Below the pieces are notes generated by a model, which saw nothing but the letters and a program-made list of their open reading frames with translations, was not told the DNA's origin and searched no databases. Of a DNA stretch of 64,000 nucleotides, positions 13,528 to 49,405 are shown in pieces (within the stretch, counting starts at the first letter, position 1; every line of letters begins with the position of its first letter). A program made the position numbers and the translations under genes. The DNA comes from Serratia rubidaea. Its GTDB lineage: Bacteria > Pseudomonadota > Gammaproteobacteria > Enterobacterales > Enterobacteriaceae. Location of the stretch: the NCBI GenBank assembly GCA_901472405.1, contig LR590463.1, positions 1,922,001 to 1,986,000 on the forward strand. The letters run 5' to 3'.

Positions 13528-14192
13528 CTTAACTTACTCGTTATTTTTTACATTATCGACAGAGCTGCGGGCAATATATCCGTCATCGTTCAGGTTGCCT
13601 TGCGTCGCGGCCTTCTCTCGCGCCCGTCCATGTTGCCGAACGTGCGCGCGGTCGCCGCTTTAGCGCCACCTGAATTATTTGGGCATAACCTCTATGGCCG
13701 GGTTAAAACCGAAAACCCCGTGTCTTCTCGCAAAGCCGTCAACCTCCCGGTTGTCGCCTGCATAGGGGCGCATTATCTCGGTAAGCCTGTTTTTCTTTGT
13801 GAAAAACAGCACTTTTACTCGGGGAATAGCCTCTGATTTACGTCGACAGATCACATTCCATTTGCCGGCCAAGCTGCAACCCGCAGCCCGCTAATTGTTT
13901 GATATCGCATTACGTCTTACGCCATTGCTGCGTTTTTGCGTTATCAGACAAACCTTGGTAATTCCGCATTTTACTCTGCTTTAACGAGAATCAACGCGGA
14001 AAGCGAACTCATTATTCCACTGCTGATACCGTTATAGCAAGGTGACTTTGCCTTAACTGCGGAAGAAATCGCAAACGATCAAACCGGCTTGCTGCCTTAT
14101 TGTTCACTGCGACGACTTCCGCACTCAGACTGACAGTTAAGCATATAAAAAGAGGTGGCGCTATTTACCTGCTGTATTTAGAATCCCGCCCC
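13528..14192. other. Divergent rne / rluC intergenic region with probable long rne leader
   Basis: 665 bases with no supported gene. In E. coli the same interval carries rne promoters and a roughly 360-base rne 5' UTR whose hairpins let RNase E cleave its own message. The GC-rich part at about 13560-13680 (many CG-rich inverted segments on the minus strand) is where such hairpins would lie, but I did not fold it. The AT-rich part at 13880-14100 probably holds the promoters of both genes. Confidence 0.5.
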
Positions 14193-20752: not shown

Positions 20753-21992
<1,240 letters not shown>

Positions 21993-22053: not shown

Positions 22054-22074
22054 ACCACCTCCTATGGAGGTGGT
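22054..22074 (+). repeat. Left-end subterminal hairpin of the IS200-type element
   Basis: Perfect 9-bp stem ACCACCTCC / GGAGGTGGT with loop TAT. Subterminal hairpins like this are bound by the TnpA dimer. Its stem strongly resembles that of the right-end hairpin (same loop, CCACCT/AGGTGG core). Confidence 0.8.
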
Positions 22075-22156
22075 CAGCAACAAGTTGGCTCTGCCAGTAA
22101 TGCTACTCATGGGAAAATCCGAATCTGTTATCCCCATAACTGATAAGGATTTAACC

Positions 22157-22594
22157 ATGAGTAGATTCCAGAAAGCATCTCATGTGCTCTGGTGTTGTCA
22201 ATATCATATTGTATGGACACCCAAGTACCGATTTCGCATCCTTAGGAATAATGTTGGCAAAGAGGTCTACAAGCAGATAAGGATCTCAAGTGAGCAACTC
22301 GGGATAGAAGTGGTAGAGCTGAATGTTCAGATAGATCATGTCCATTTACTGGTAAAAGTCCCGCCACGTCTTTCTATTTCACATGTGATAGGTCATTTGA
22401 AAGGTAAAACAGCCCTTAGGCTGTTCAGCAAATTTCCCTATCTGCGGAAGAACAAGTTGTGGGGAAATCACTTCTGGGCGCGGGGTTACTGCGTAGATAC
22501 CGTAGGTATAAATGAAGAAATGATAAGAAAGTACGTGAAGTATCAGGAAAAGCATGAAGTTGAAGAGAGCCAGCTTCCACTAAAAGAGGTGTGA
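22157..22594 (+). CDS. tnpA: IS200/IS605 family transposase TnpA (Y1 HUH)
   Basis: 145-residue HUH single-strand transposase. It has the segment QYHIVWTPKYRFRIL near the N-terminus, the metal-binding HUH motif HVH in NVQIDHVHLLVKVPP (about residues 66-70), IGHLKGKTALRLF, the W-G-NHFWARGYCVDTVG block and the catalytic Tyr in RKYVKYQEKHE. All key residues are present, so it may be active. The start MSRFQKAS follows RBS AAGGA; an upstream open frame is leader. No TnpB accompanies it. Confidence 0.92.
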   Translation: MSRFQKASHVLWCCQYHIVWTPKYRFRILRNNVGKEVYKQIRISSEQLGIEVVELNVQIDHVHLLVKVPPRLSISHVIGHLKGKTALRLFSKFPYLRKNKLWGNHFWARGYCVDTVGINEEMIRKYVKYQEKHEVEESQLPLKEV

Positions 22595-23556: not shown

Positions 23557-24575
23557 ATGAAGAAAGTAAAGTTTGTTGCACTGCTCGTCGTCGTGATTTT
23601 GGCCCTGCTGTTCTGGGGCTATCAGAAGGTTGAACGCTTTGCCGATACGCCGCTGGCGATCCAGCAGGAAGCGATCTTTAAACTGCCGGCGGGCACCGGG
23701 CGGGTGGCGCTGGAAGGGCTGCTGGTGCGCGATAAGCTGATCCGCAATGGAAAATGGTTCCCGTGGTTGCTGAAAATTGAGCCTAAGCTGGCGGCATTTA
23801 AAGCCGGCACCTACCGTTTCACTCCGGGCATGACGGTGCGCCAGATGCTGGAACTGCTGGCCAGCGGCAAAGAGGCGCAGTTCAACGCGCGGTTTATTGA
23901 AGGTTCGCGCCTGAGCGATTGGATGAGCATTCTGCAGCAGGCCAAGTACCTGAAGCATACGCTGGCGGTAAAAGCGAGGCGGAAATCGCCGCTGCGCTGG
24001 GCATGCCGGCAGGCACGCACCCGGAAGGGCGTCTGTACCCGGATACCTATTCCTATACCGCCGGCATGAGCGATATCGCTCTGCTCAAGCGCGCCCATAC
24101 GCGGATGGAAAAGGCGCTGGATGAGGCCTGGCAGCAGCGTGACAAGGCGCTGCCGTATAAAACGCCGGAACAGCTGTTGACCATGGCTTCCATTATCGAG
24201 AAAGAGACCGCGGTGGCGGCCGAGCGCGGCAAAGTGGCGTCGGTATTCGTCAACCGCCTGCGCATCGGTATGCGGCTGCAGACCGATCCGACGGTGATCT
24301 ACGGCATGGGCGCACGCTATACTGGCACCATTACCCGTAAGGATCTGGATACGCCGACCGCCTATAACACCTATACCATCAGCGGGCTGCCGCCGACGCC
24401 GATCGCCATGCCGAGCCAGGCGTCGCTGACGGCGGCGTCGCAGCCGGAAAAAACGCCTTATCTCTATTTTGTTGCTGACGGCAAGGGTGGACACACCTTT
24501 ACCACCAATCTGGCCAGCCATAATAAGGCGGTGCGGGTTTACCGCCAGCTAGTGAAGGAAAAGAATGAAAAGTAA
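23557..24575 (+). CDS. mltG: Endolytic murein transglycosylase MltG (one frame break)
   Basis: Inner-membrane lytic transglycosylase that cuts nascent peptidoglycan and sets glycan chain length. One N-terminal membrane helix ([17 protein letters not shown]), then a LysM-like region ([25 protein letters not shown]) and the YceG catalytic domain with the key Glu in [22 protein letters not shown], and [25 protein letters not shown]. The frame breaks near 23960-23970, between KYLKHTL and the next frame's [10 protein letters not shown]; one base error restores about 340 residues. The stop overlaps the tmk start. Confidence 0.93.
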
Positions 24576-43169: not shown

Positions 43170-43866
43170 CCATCCATTGTTGCAGTGTGACAACCTGTGC
43201 AAGACCTATCAGGAAGGCAATCTGCATACCGACGTGCTGCGTAATGTCAGCTTTGCCATGCAGCCCGGCGAGATGATGGCGATTGTCGGCAGCTCGGGCT
43301 CGGGGAAAAGCACCCTGTTGCACCTGCTGGGCGGGCTGGACTCACCAACCTCCGGCAGCGTGGTGTTCAAAGGGCAGGCGATGAACGCGCTGTCGTCCGC
43401 CGCCAAGGCGGAGCTGCGTAACCGCGAGCTGGGCTTTATCTACCAGTTTCACCATCTGCTGCCGGATTTTACCGCATTGGAAAATGCCGCGATGCCGCTG
43501 CTGATCGGCGGCGTCAAGCCGGCGCAGGCGCAGGAGAAGGCGCTGGAGATGCTGGCGGCGGTCGGGCTGGATAAGCGCAGCAAACACCGTCCTGCCGAAC
43601 TGTCCGGCGGCGAACGCCAGCGGGTGGCGATCGCCCGTGCGCTGGTGAACAATCCGTCGCTGGTGCTGGCGGATGAACCGACCGGCAACCTGGACCAGCG
43701 CACCGCCGACAGCATCTTTGATCTGCTGGGCGAGCTGAACGTGCGTCAGGGCACCGCGTTTTTGGTGGTGACCCACGATCTGCAGCTGGCCAAACGCCTT
43801 AACCGTCAGCTGGAAATGCGCGACGGCCATCTGCAGGCGCAGCTGACGCTGCTGGGGGCCGAGTAA
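43162..43866 (+). CDS. lolD: Lipoprotein-releasing ABC transporter ATPase LolD
   Basis: 234-residue ATPase of LolCDE. Walker [15 protein letters not shown]-loop [22 protein letters not shown], signature [15 protein letters not shown], Walker [13 protein letters not shown], switch His in [10 protein letters not shown]. Overlaps lolC, and its TAATG links to lolE. Confidence 0.97.
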
Positions 43867-45112
43867 TGCGCGCATTGCCTCTCTCACTGCTGACGGCGCT
43901 GCGTTTCAGCCGCGGTCGGCGGCGCGGCGGCATGGTGTCGCTGATTTCGGTGATCTCCACCATCGGCATTGCGCTGGGGGTGGCGGTGCTGATCGTCGGC
44001 CTGAGCGCGATGAACGGTTTTGAGCGCGAGCTGCAAAACCGCGTGCTGTCGGTGGTGCCGCACGGGGAAATCGAGCCGGTCAATCAGCCGTTTAACGGCT
44101 GGCCGGCGATGATGCAGCGGGTGGAGAAGGTGCCGGGCATTCTGGCCGCCGCGCCGTACATCAATTTCACCGGCCTGATGGAAAACGGCGCCCAGCTGCG
44201 CGCGGTGCAGCTGAAAGGGGTTGACCCGGCGCAGGAAGCGGATCTCAGCGCGCTGCCGAAATATGTGCAGGGCGACGCCTGGGCCAACTTCAAGGGCGGC
44301 GAACAGCAGGTGATTCTGGGCAAAGGCGTTGCCGATGCGCTCGGCGTTAAGCAGGGCTCTTTTGTCACGGTGATGATCCCCAACAGCGACCCGGAAATGA
44401 AACTGCTGCAGCCGAAGCGTATCCGCCTGCACGTCAGCGGCATTTTGCAGCTCAGCGGCCAGCTGGATCACAGCCTGGCGATGGTGCCGCTGGCCGATGC
44501 GCAGCGCTATCTGGACATGGGTGACAGTGTCACTGGCATCGCCATCAAGGTGAATGACGTATTCGCCGCCAATAAGCTGGTGCGCGACGCCGGCGAGGTG
44601 ACCAACGCCTACGTCTATATCAAGAGCTGGATCGGCAAGTACGGCTATATGTACCGCGATATTCAGATGATCCGCGCCATTATGTATCTGGCGATGGTGC
44701 TGGTGATCGGCGTGGCCTGCTTTAACATCGTCTCCACGCTGGTGATGGCGGTGAAGGACAAGAGTGGCGATATCGCCGTGCTGCGTACGCTGGGGCCAAA
44801 GACGGCTTTATCCGGGCGATATTTGTCTGGTACGGCCTGCTGGCGGGGCTGGTGGGTAGCCTGAGCGGCGTGGTGGCCGGCGTGTTTGCCTCGCTGCAGC
44901 TGACAAATATCATTAAGCTGATTGAAAAAATGGTCGGACATTCGTTTTTGTCCGGCGATATTTACTTTATCGACTTTTTACCGTCGGAGCTGCACTGGCT
45001 GGACGTACTGATCGTCCTGGCGACCGCCATCGTACTCAGCCTGCTGGCCAGCTGGTACCCGGCGCGTCGCGCCAGCCGTATCGATCCGGCGCGGGTGCTA
45101 AGCGGTCAGTGA
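43866..45112 (+). CDS. lolE: Lipoprotein-releasing ABC transporter permease LolE (one frame break)
   Basis: Second permease of LolCDE, about 415 residues, that takes the lipoprotein from the membrane. [39 protein letters not shown] is the first helix and lipoprotein-contact region. The frame breaks near 44803; one missing G in the run of CTGGGGCC restores [20 protein letters not shown] and leads into [15 protein letters not shown] and the final [19 protein letters not shown]. Start ATG overlaps the lolD stop. Confidence 0.95.
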
Positions 45113-46096: not shown

Positions 46097-46933
46097 ATGC
46101 GTACGCGCCATCGGCTGTGTCAGTTTCGCAAGAGCAAACATGTGTTGCACCAACGTTTCCGTTCGCGGATTTTTCACCGCGATACCATGGCGGCGGCGGA
46201 GTTGAAAAAGCCGTTTGTGGTGGTGTTGACCGGCGCCGGCATTTCTGCGGAGTCCGGCATTCGCACCTTCCGTGCGGCGGACGGCCTGTGGGAAGAGCAT
46301 AAGGTGGAGGACGTGGCGACGCCGGAAGGCTTCCAGCGCGATCCGGAGCTGGTGCAGGCGTTTTACAATGCGCGCCGCCGCCAGCTGCAGCAGGATGATA
46401 TCGCGCCGAACGCCGCGCACCGCGCGCTGGCCAGTCTGGAAGAGTGGCTGGGGGACAATTTCCTGCTGATTACGCAAAATATCGACAACCTGCACGAGCG
46501 TGCCGGCAACCGCCGGGTGGTGCATATGCATGGCGAACTGCTGAAGGCGCGCTGTACGCAGTCCGGCCAGGTGGTAGACTGGCCCGGCGATCTGAACGTC
46601 GACGACCGTTGCCACTGCTGCCAGTTCCCGGCGCCGCTGCGCCCGCACGTGGTGTGGTTCGGCGAAATGCCGATCGGCATGGACGATATCTATCAGGCGC
46701 TGGAAAGCGCGGACTTCTTCGTCGCTATCGGCACCTCCGGCCATGTGTATCCGGCGGCCGGGTTTGTGCACGAGGCGCGGCTGGGCGGCGCGCACACCAT
46801 GGAGCTGAACCTGGAGCCGAGCCAGGTGGAAAGCCAGTTTGCCGAGAAGCACTACGGCCCGGCCAGCGAAGTGGTGCCGCGCTTTGTGCATAAGTTTCTG
46901 ATGGGGAAAATTGAACGCGCCGACCGGCCGTAA
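46097..46933 (+). CDS. cobB: NAD-dependent protein deacylase CobB (sirtuin)
   Basis: Class III sirtuin that removes acetyl and succinyl groups from lysines such as that of acetyl-CoA synthetase. 278 residues with the N-terminal Arg-rich extension seen in the long enterobacterial form, then [34 protein letters not shown], catalytic [11 protein letters not shown] and the Zn Cys set (C...CHCC), and [22 protein letters not shown]. Confidence 0.96.
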
Positions 46934-47025
46934 CCCGCAGAACTCGCCGCGGCCTGCGCGCCGCGGCGGCAATGAAATCCGTTATCACGTGGCATGATAA
47001 TGAAACTTTGCTTTACTAAAACATG

Positions 47026-47045
47026 GCTCTTTCGGCCGAAAGAGC
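47026..47045. promoter_or_regulatory. Perfect 20-bp palindrome between cobB and the P450 gene
   Basis: GCTCTTTCGGCCGAAAGAGC is its own reverse complement, and the flanks add partial symmetry (AACAT on the left, GTGTTT on the right). It is 29 bases before the P450 start. It could be an operator for a dimeric repressor overlapping the P450 promoter, or a hairpin in the leader; it lacks a U tract for termination. Confidence 0.6.
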
Positions 47046-47074
47046 GTGTTTAGTCAAAAAGAGGTTTCATATTC

Positions 47075-48301
47075 ATGAATAACTCTGATGATAGAACCCT
47101 GCGTTTTAACCCGGCCTCTCCCTTATTTAATCAGCATATTTATCAGATTTATCAGCGAATGCGCCGGCAGCAGCCGCTGCTGCGCATCGGCAGAACCTGG
47201 GTGCTGACGCGTTATCAGGATGTCAGCGCGGCGCTGCGCGCCCCGCAGCTCAGCTGCAGCGGTATTCCGCGGCATCTGAGCGCGGAGTTCGCGCGCCTGC
47301 AAGGCGGGCTGGCGCCTGAATTGGCGATGTTGGTGCAGGAGATGGCGCTGTTTCAGGATAACGGTACGCACCGGCAGCACCGTAAGCCGCTGATGGCGCT
47401 GTTCAGCCGCGAGCCGCTGGCGCAGCTCAGGCGGCTGGTCGTCGATGAAATTAACCGGTCGATCGCCGCTCTGGCGAAGACGGATCGCCTGGATGTGATC
47501 GTGCAGCTGGCGCGGCCGCTGTGGCCGCGTTTGTTTGCCCGCTGGCTGAATCTTTCACCGCAGCAGAGCCAGGTGATTGAGCAGGAGAAGGAGAGTATTC
47601 GTCTGCTGCTCGATCCCAGCGCCATCGATCGGGCCGGCCTTGAGCGGCTGGCGTCAGCGCTGCGGCGTCTGGACACGTTGTTCAGCCAGCTCTACCAGGA
47701 GTGCGCCGACGGCCGTCCTTCACTGTTCTTTGCTGCGCTGGCGCAGGGCTATGGCGACCAGCAGGCTCTGATGCAACGCTACTTCAGCGCCGACTGCGTC
47801 ACCATTCTGATTGGCGGCAGCGAAACCACCGAGGCGCTGATCGGCAACCTGATGCAGGTTGTGGCGCAGGATGAACCGCTCCAGCAGCAGCTGCGGCAGC
47901 ACCCGCAGTGGATTGCGCAGGCGGTGCAGGAAACGCTGCGCTATGAGTCACCGCTGCAGATGGCGCGGCGTACCGTTATCCAGCCGTGGACGCTGCATGG
48001 CCGCACGCTGCGTGAGCAGGATGCGGTGTTGCTGTGTCTGGGGGCGGCTAATCGTGATGAAACACAGTTTTGTGGCGCGCAGCAGTTCGATTTGCACCGT
48101 GAAAATAACTCTCGGCATCTGGGGTTCGGCGGCAGCGCACATTTGTGTGCGGGGCAACTGCTGGCAAGGTTTCAGGCGGAAAGCGTCTGTGCCGCGCTGC
48201 TGCAGCACTTTCCGCGCCTCAGGCCGCTGGAGCAGGCGCAGTGGCAGACGGACAGTCTGATTTTACGTTCGCTGAAGTCGCTGCCGTTGGCGTTGGGCTA
48301 G
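47075..48301 (+). CDS. Cytochrome P450
   Basis: Soluble class I bacterial P450 of 408 residues. The I-helix oxygen-binding motif reads IGGSETTEALIG, the ExxR pair is ETLRYESPLQMARR, and the heme-ligand loop is LGFGGSAHLCAGQLLARFQ. The substrate is unknown and no ferredoxin or reductase gene is adjacent. It lies between cobB and potD, a place with only small genes in E. coli, so it is probably an acquired gene. It could in principle serve the biosynthetic locus 7 kb away, without evidence for that. Confidence 0.93.
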   Translation: MNNSDDRTLRFNPASPLFNQHIYQIYQRMRRQQPLLRIGRTWVLTRYQDVSAALRAPQLSCSGIPRHLSAEFARLQGGLAPELAMLVQEMALFQDNGTHRQHRKPLMALFSREPLAQLRRLVVDEINRSIAALAKTDRLDVIVQLARPLWPRLFARWLNLSPQQSQVIEQEKESIRLLLDPSAIDRAGLERLASALRRLDTLFSQLYQECADGRPSLFFAALAQGYGDQQALMQRYFSADCVTILIGGSETTEALIGNLMQVVAQDEPLQQQLRQHPQWIAQAVQETLRYESPLQMARRTVIQPWTLHGRTLREQDAVLLCLGAANRDETQFCGAQQFDLHRENNSRHLGFGGSAHLCAGQLLARFQAESVCAALLQHFPRLRPLEQAQWQTDSLILRSLKSLPLALG

Positions 48302-48317
48302 GCGGGGAAGGGAACAG

Positions 48318-48338
48318 GGCCGGGCAGTGCGCCCGGCC
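48318..48338. terminator. GC-rich hairpin between P450 and potD
   Basis: GGCCGGGC / GCCCGGCC with a 5-base loop lies between the converging P450 and potD genes. No U tract on either strand, so termination would be Rho-linked or partial. Confidence 0.45.
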
Positions 48339-48358
48339 TGACAGGAGTGAGGCTGGCG

Positions 48359-49405
48359 TTAACGGCCGGCCTTCAGCTTCTGGAACTGGGTTTCGTACAG
48401 CGTGCTGGCGTCGCCGACGTCGTTCTGCCATTCGCCGTTTTTGATCACCGCGTCGTCCGGATACAGGGATTTGTCGTTGGCGATCTCCGGCGGCAGCAGC
48501 TTTTTCGCCTCCAGGTTCGGCGTCGGATAGCCGATGGTTTTCGCCACCTGCACCGCAATTTCCGGCCGCAGCAGGAAGTTAATCAGCTTCAGCGCGCCGT
48601 CGACGTTCTTGGCGTTTGCCGGGATCGCCAGGCTGTCCATCCAGAAGATGCCGCCTTCTTTCGGCCAGACGATCTCCAGCGGCGTGCCGGCCTGACGGGC
48701 GACAAAGGCTGAGCCGTTCCACACCATCCCCAGATTGACTTCCCCTTCCATAAACGGGTTGCCTGGGTTGTCGGAGTTAAAGGCCAGCACGTTCGGCATC
48801 AGCTTTTTCAGCTCGTTATAGGCGGCCTCAATCTCCTGCGGATTGGTGGTATTGCCGGAATAGCCCAGTTTACGCAGCGCCATCTGGAACACTTCACGCG
48901 CGTCGTCGGTCAGCAGCAGGCTGCTTTTGTATTCCGGCTTCCACAGGTCGGCCCATGAGGTGATGGTTTTCGGATCGATCTCGTCGCTGTTGACGCCGAT
49001 GGCGGTGGCGCCCCAGATATAGGGGATCGAGTAGTCGTTATTCGGATCGAACGGCTTGTTCAGCAGGTTGGGATCGAGATCCTTAAAGTTGCTAAGCTTG
49101 CTTTTGTCGATCTTCTGCAGCATGCCTTCCTTGCTCATCTTGGCGATGAAATAGGTGGAAGGCACCACCAGGTCGTACGCGCCGTCTTTATAGGTTTTCA
49201 GTTTGGCGTACATGCTTTCATTGGATTCATAGGTGGAATAGATCACCTTAATCCCGGTTTCTTTGGTGAACTGATCGAGCAGGCCTGGCGGCACATATTC
49301 AGTCCAGTTATAGAAATAGAGGGTTTTGCCGTCATCGGCGGCGGTTGCAGAGCCGATGCTCAGTGCCATCATCCCGGCTGCGAGCAGGTGTGACCACTTT
49401 TTCAT
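48359..49405 (-). CDS. potD: Spermidine/putrescine ABC transporter substrate-binding protein PotD
   Basis: 348-residue periplasmic polyamine receptor. Signal peptide MKKWSHLLAAGMMALSIGSATA, then TLYFYNWTEYVPPGLLDQFTKETGIKVIYSTYESNE, VPSTYFIAKMSKEGML, and IPYIWGATAIGVN with polyamine-contact aromatic and acidic residues. RBS AAGGATACG. Unlike E. coli, where potC and potD are contiguous, 206 bases with a strong terminator separate them here. Confidence 0.95.
   Translation of the reverse strand: MKKWSHLLAAGMMALSIGSATAADDGKTLYFYNWTEYVPPGLLDQFTKETGIKVIYSTYESNESMYAKLKTYKDGAYDLVVPSTYFIAKMSKEGMLQKIDKSKLSNFKDLDPNLLNKPFDPNNDYSIPYIWGATAIGVNSDEIDPKTITSWADLWKPEYKSSLLLTDDAREVFQMALRKLGYSGNTTNPQEIEAAYNELKKLMPNVLAFNSDNPGNPFMEGEVNLGMVWNGSAFVARQAGTPLEIVWPKEGGIFWMDSLAIPANAKNVDGALKLINFLLRPEIAVQVAKTIGYPTPNLEAKKLLPPEIANDKSLYPDDAVIKNGEWQNDVGDASTLYETQFQKLKAGR

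Follow-up and report, generated by a model that had tools for sequence, protein, structure and literature searches.

In the 64,000-nt stretch of Serratia rubidaea DNA analysed here (the window), a cytochrome P450 gene is preceded by a perfect 20-bp palindrome, which an initial annotation took as a possible repressor operator answering to a small ligand. We have asked whether the palindrome acts as such an operator or belongs to a larger structure of the P450 leader, and what this would mean for the expression of the enzyme.

The P450 gene and its setting

The P450 reading frame was intact (408 aa, Pfam p450 E-value of 1.1e-19) and lay between cobB and potD (Table 1), as initially annotated. 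The hallmarks of the family were found in the protein, namely FGGSAHLCAG with Cys358, E286/R289 and GGSET at 247-251, and an alignment of five P450 sequences showed residues G247 to T251, E286, R289, H356, C358 and G360 to be invariant. None of the NCBIfam P450 models reached its cut-off (the best scored 119 of 343 bits). The closest solved structures were BioI (PDB 3ejb, 5.3e-35) and PksS (4yzr, 2.8e-31), matched over nearly the full length. The similarity to these two best structure matches was distant, however, and biotin or polyketide genes were absent among the flanking genes scanned. The earlier remark that no redox partner is encoded nearby was borne out, with no redox partner or ferredoxin found when 10 flanking proteins, from about 41.9 to 53.9 kb of the window, were scanned; no regulator was found among these proteins either. 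The same genome carries a second P450 gene (L004 1429-2628, corresponding to G000:C1 near 3140556), the product of which is 26% identical; the frame next to it resembles an MFS-type transporter.

Table 1. Features of the P450 locus (window coordinates)
Feature	Position	Strand	Evidence or remark
cobB (Sir2-family deacetylase), upstream gene	46097..46933	+	NCBIfam NF001755, 8.9e-166
Full extent of the leader dyad, an imperfect inverted repeat predicted to form an RNA hairpin over Shine-Dalgarno and start codon	46993..47077	+	self-match, fold, pair list
GATAAT, -10-like, outer edge of left arm; candidate promoter 1, expected start near 47008	46996..47001	+	promoter-like, 9 of 12
Left arm: 25-nt element in common with the Photorhabdus thracensis P450	47000..47024	+	22/25 match, 0/2000 shuffles
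TGC-TTTACT in left arm; candidate extended -10 (promoter 2), expected start near 47024	47009..47017	+	conserved part; promoter role inferred
Perfect 20-bp palindrome, apical stem-loop of the predicted hairpin	47026..47045	.	stem kept, loop changed in sister
Right arm, which overlaps the ribosome site: left-arm element in diverged, inverted form	47046..47070	+	arm alignment, pairs
Shine-Dalgarno AAAGAGG, partly paired with left arm in the full hairpin	47058..47064	+	pair list
Cytochrome P450, 408 aa; GGSETT 247-252, ExxR 286-289, heme Cys358	47075..48301	+	Pfam PF00067
potD, convergent gene downstream	48359..49405	-	NCBIfam NF007048, 1e-220

We have compared 24 cobB loci, and the P450 was present in two of them, our own and that of a sister species. 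The cobB and potD genes adjoined without a P450 in 7/24 loci (L083, L085, L086, L090 and L092 within the family, L094 and L102 outside it), potD was 976 nt away in one, and no potD was nearby in 14. From the adjoining pairs we infer that the P450 gene was inserted between cobB and potD in this genus, behind genes whose transcripts could read into it. A plasmid origin was considered and rejected, as no near DNA match was present in the plasmid collection; at the protein level, 1177 plasmid records matched the P450, each with less than 60% identity.

Directly 3' of cobB there is a G+C-rich stem-loop (46945-46969); the sister has, by eye, another sequence with a similar stem, followed by a T-rich stretch. 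This stem-loop is possibly the cobB terminator, and it was absent from the listing of the terminator scan. Beyond the P450 gene, a sub-threshold Rfam match to SorX at 48312-48378 (23.2 vs 46.6 bits) was dismissed.

The leader dyad and its counterpart in the sister species

The 20-mer GCTCTTTCGGCCGAAAGAGC occurred at a single place in the 4,996,579-base genome, also when allowing three mismatches, which left without a match the further copies that the initial annotation had proposed to look for. A reversed control pattern likewise had one place, and 100 shuffles gave no match at up to three mismatches. The palindrome is thus real, but it forms only the centre of an imperfect inverted repeat of ~85 nt. 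A genome search with 46985-47080 returned this repeat as a match on the opposite strand (77% self-complementary, E-value of 1.5e-6), with the dyad extending from the -10-like hexamer, across the Shine-Dalgarno sequence and up to the start codon. The RNA fold of 46990-47080 had a predicted energy of -35.3 kcal/mol, compared with -15.3 (sd 3.4) in 200 shuffles (z -5.9), and the predicted pairs, from 46993/47077 inward, took in part of the Shine-Dalgarno sequence as well as the start codon. Reading the palindrome as the strongest dyad outside terminators could not be maintained, since the P450 leader was the fifth distinct place by composition-corrected folding (8523 window positions, both strands) and a dyad with longer arms was present at 22103-22164 (29-nt arms, 83% complementary).

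In its own genome, the leader matched its own place only (both strands), plus scraps of 14 and 16 nt, and no Rfam family matched it above the gathering score. A dispersed repeat such as ERIC was rejected on the grounds that the leader is single-locus. An IS200 or other IS element was also rejected, given the lack of further leader copies and that the gene is a P450 without a transposase. A terminator or attenuator was not retained either: the 20-mer is terminator-like on both strands, but three such sites were found versus 2.0 expected and the tail is weak. A small dyad (TTATCA-N7-TGATAA, 46982-47000), which by eye is not kept in the sister, lies just upstream of the hairpin.

The genus-level comparison involved one other species, the sister, whose P450 is 83% identical and occupies the same cobB-potD position. 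The two leaders were 91% identical (73/80), as compared with 72% at fourfold codon sites (126/175) and 57% in the cobB-side spacer (36/63). A fold covering the start codon and the ribosome site was likewise predicted for the sister leader (z -4.8). Out of the 35 pairs of our leader, 31 were unchanged in the sister, one was changed on both sides and three were broken, with loss of mid-stem pairs. The double-sided change concerned the pair 46995-47075 (T-A to C-G), with the start codon going from ATG to GTG in the sister. The changes between the two leaders fell on 5/70 paired and 5/22 unpaired columns, and when they were placed at random (3,000 trials in each direction) an equally good fold was obtained in 7.8% of the trials from our leader to the sister and in 0.2% from the sister to ours. 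The single compensatory pair is thin support for selection on the fold, and the full hairpin was found in only two of the eight P450-bearing genomes; quasi-palindrome template switching can create matching pairs without selection. A covariance model built from the two leaders matched those two alone among the eight genomes (E-values up to 10).

The palindrome centre, GGCC, is GCTC in the sister, and hence the exact palindrome is not conserved. A kept stem with a changed loop suits an RNA hairpin and ill suits a perfect DNA palindrome. The operator proposal survived in part: the P450 is an orphan and its dyad seems to be of importance, as judged from the leader conservation, whereas a perfect-palindrome operator is at odds with the changed centre, the lack of a second copy, the absence of a regulator among the 10 flanking proteins scanned and the wider element being in no excess over control in other genomes. 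The condition that the initial annotation had named against itself, a hairpin of the cobB mRNA without effect on the P450, does not describe the locus either, since the ribosome site and start codon covered by the hairpin are those of the P450 itself.

Elsewhere in the window, genes that we take from their translations to be fabF (20753-21992) and mltG (23557-24575) look split into overlapping frames, and the presumed LolE (43866-44864) looks truncated. This suggests indel errors in the assembly (one contig, reported as 91.24% complete), and single-base indels separating the two leaders might thus be errors as well.

The left-arm element in P450 relatives and candidate promoters

A first contig scan with the single P450 protein found no relative. 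In the wider searches, a P450 at E <= 1e-40 was found in 5/392 family genomes, and a named set comprised 11 P450 loci, six at 46-53% identity and the other five at 25-36%, with three loci (L005-L007) common to both sets. The six closer P450s, from Photorhabdus thracensis, P. khanii, Cedecea sulfonylureivorans, C. davisae, Enterobacter chuandaensis and Enterobacter sp. Cy-643, are Enterobacterales relatives of the same lineage as ours. Where scanned, their neighbours (an HhH-GPD glycosylase with an HsdM-type methylase, an aldehyde-dehydrogenase-family protein taken as proA, a tRNA-Arg and a chemoreceptor) were unlike the cobB-potD setting. None of their leaders matched the hairpin model, with fold z-scores ranging from -1.6 to +0.5 in 6/6, and by eye the palindrome was absent from the 150 nt preceding these six genes. 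When 394 relatives were searched at the DNA level with the leader plus gene, 17 matched and, beyond our own genome, G001 and G138, the matches were pieces of about 24-50 nt.

The left arm of the dyad could be followed further. Positions 47000-47024 aligned without gaps to the region upstream of the P. thracensis P450, and none of the shuffles scored as high (Table 1). The match was weaker in E. chuandaensis (0.026), non-significant in each of the two Cedecea when taken alone (0.139 and 0.612) and absent in Enterobacter sp. (0.893); that of P. khanii was at TGATAATGA only, outside the conserved core (0.041). In pooled counts of 10-, 12- and 16-mers at the left-arm site, in which the Cedecea and Enterobacter sequences are mutually related, the values were 47 vs at most 46, 55 vs 53 and 67 vs 63, above all 60 shuffled sets. 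The pattern TGAAACN{3,10}CTTWACTNAA, derived from these same sequences, was present in 7/8 P450-bearing genomes, six times at the P450. Over the 392 family genomes it occurred, by table count, in 38 (three at a P450) versus 36 for the reversed control, while the 25-mer with up to three mismatches occurred in 9/198 genomes (two at a P450) versus 10 for the control. The element is thus associated with the P450 gene, and no regulon marked by it could be detected in these searches. A P. khanii match outside the P450 (L045), upstream of a 151-aa frame, was rejected as being at chance level, with the control having two places in the same eight genomes.

Some features of the individual relatives were observed by eye. 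In P. khanii (L016) the left-arm element is missing, with the P450 almost directly adjoining the glycosylase gene; the bases near the start capable of pairing with this element likewise differ from those of P. thracensis (L012), which would be one anecdotal sign of relaxed constraint. Upstream of the C. davisae P450 there is a CRP-like TGTGA-N6-TCAC; the sites of OmpR, PhoP, Fur, mar-box and CRP were weighed by eye against their consensus. In E. chuandaensis (L014 4824-4900), the P450 start lies 88 nt beyond a tRNA-Arg gene. tRNA genes are a common kind of integration site.

Two candidate promoters lie within the 5' arm of the predicted hairpin, GATAAT and/or TGC-TTTACT, as suggested by their sequence. 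The promoter-like match at GATAAT (9 of 12) was the one found, versus a mean of 0.1 in 50 shuffles. The hexamer is kept in the sister, its -35 is not conserved, and in the other genera, by eye, the TGAAAC motif has no GATAAT directly before it. TGC-TTTACT resembles an extended -10 with sigma-S features, as read from GCTTTACTAAA against the sigma-S consensus, a reading on which the open-access literature searched gave no useful information; -10 hexamers normally have A where TTTACT has T.

A proposed ribosome-site-hiding leader

These data led us to a model in which the palindrome would be the apical stem of a ~85-nt hairpin in the P450 mRNA leader. In a transcript initiated upstream of the dyad, for instance by read-through from nagK-cobB, pairing between the two arms would hide both the Shine-Dalgarno sequence and the start codon, and the P450 would be poorly translated. 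A left-arm promoter, either GATAAT (46996) or the conserved TGC-TTTACT (47009) or both, would instead yield transcripts without the outer left arm, so that the ribosome site would be freer and the P450 would be translated mainly off its own promoter. The hairpin would in this way insulate a laterally acquired P450 from any operon ahead of it. We give an even chance to this leader, in which read-through mRNA is blocked and the left-arm promoter produces the translatable mRNA. Its transcription starts, translational repression and insulating role, like the gene insertion, are what we infer beside the observed dyad, its predicted fold, its retention in the sister and the conservation of the left arm.

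For our leader at 37 C, opening the segment that runs from ribosome site to start codon was predicted to cost 15-16 kcal/mol in transcripts starting 6-20 nt before GATAAT. The cost was 4-5 when transcripts began 10-20 nt beyond the first base of this hexamer, and 8 at 25 nt. With shorter transcripts, the cost was 14.1-16.7 for upstream starts versus 6.7-10.7 for starts at 47004-47028; a start near 47025 required 10.4, a modest gain. The drop was smaller in the sister (11.4-14.5 upstream versus 7.8-8.9), and homologues without the hairpin had costs of 8.0-13.5 with 100 nt upstream, not far below our own. The P450 gene, at 16.7, ranked 5th of 54 rule-picked genes of the window (median 8.65), a list that left out an IS200-type gene with a cost of about 23; this gene is missing from the top because it was not picked by the rule.

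Three other readings of the leader were weighed. In an enlarged form of the initial operator proposal, a dimeric regulator whose gene lies elsewhere would bind a ~25-bp site, present in the arms as two inverted copies (47000-47024 and 47046-47070), and would control the P450 promoter. The right arm read backwards does resemble both the left-arm element and the Photorhabdus element, and the element stands upstream of P450s in differing gene contexts. In the sister, however, the core ACTAAAC of the right copy is altered, with one change in the left copy, and the perfect centre is not conserved; the element is not in excess elsewhere and the 10 flanking proteins include no regulator, all of which makes a DNA operator unlikely. 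We regard as slightly more doubtful a fold devoid of function, in which the left arm is a promoter, the right arm an inverted template-switch (quasi-palindrome) copy and the hairpin a by-product. It would agree with the left-arm element alone being common to other genera, whose six leaders fold ordinarily, and template switching could also yield the paired change 46995/47075. Against it, the sister keeps the fold despite 10 changed columns, which random placement rarely achieved, and the changes are scarcer in paired than in unpaired columns.

The hairpin could also be a signal-responsive translational switch, opened by a cue (a ribosome stalled on a short frame further upstream, a ligand, an sRNA or Hfq/CsrA) for post-transcriptional P450 induction, as in translational attenuators and riboswitches. 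A 17-codon frame runs from an ATG at 47000 through the hairpin, the left arm is conserved as sequence, and frames at the matching place begin with ATG in the sister and in P. thracensis and with GTG in two Cedecea, although any NTGAAA yields such a start. By eye, the ATG at 47000 is not preceded by a Shine-Dalgarno sequence. The length of the frame varies (27 codons in the sister, 6 codons in P. thracensis) and E. chuandaensis has CTG; a leader peptide was rejected on account of this non-conserved frame without a ribosome site. No Rfam family matches the leader, and the hairpin is predicted to stay closed at 42 C, for which reason it is not a simple RNA thermometer. Taken together, a switch of this kind seems quite improbable. 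A further reading would have a mobile, stand-alone Enterobacterales P450 lineage carry a gene-specific 25-nt control element, made in this genus into a start-site-selective or signal-responsive translational switch, with enzyme production restricted to a particular cue at any site of insertion. We consider this improbable; such control of a bacterial P450 was not found in the open-access literature searched.

If the ribosome-site-hiding leader is correct, a laterally acquired bacterial P450 would bring its own translation lock, of the type known for the late genes of phages and for insertion sequences. This would account for the ability of a potentially costly oxidase to follow any operon without read-through expression. 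Short perfect palindromes taken for operators may then be the tips of longer RNA structures. The mechanism itself is ordinary, being a known kind of leader, and it is the gene that follows it that is unusual. No description of a P450 leader hairpin was found in the titles, abstract beginnings and passages of the open-access literature searched.

The arrangement resembles that of T4 gene e, for which passages of the published accounts describe long early transcripts that form an inhibitory structure and late transcripts that start inside its 5' arm and do not (PMC3014915, PMC2988022). I-TevI is described there as having the same leader arrangement. As in these genes, according to the same passages, long transcripts of the P450 would fold over the ribosome site, with a promoter in the DNA of the 5' arm, the fold and promoter being predicted in the case of the P450. 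T4 gene e and I-TevI are phage genes with late promoters, whereas ours is a bacterial chromosomal P450 known from its predicted fold and promoter. In IS200, a stem-loop in the tnpA leader occludes the ribosome site of a mobile gene, and another one terminates impinging transcripts, as stated in the portions consulted of PMC3196728. The ribosome site would be hidden in the P450 leader as in tnpA, but the P450 gene has no transposase and is not an IS.

The window itself holds an IS200-type transposase gene (22064-22594, Pfam Y1_Tnp 5.8e-38), just after the apparent fabF. The longer dyad mentioned above (22103-22164) corresponds to a hairpin of this gene and covers its ribosome site and ATG at 22157, with the opening cost of about 23 kcal/mol. 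An RNase E 5' UTR element, rne5, is also present on the minus strand at 13671-14003 (Rfam RF00040, 272.1 bits).
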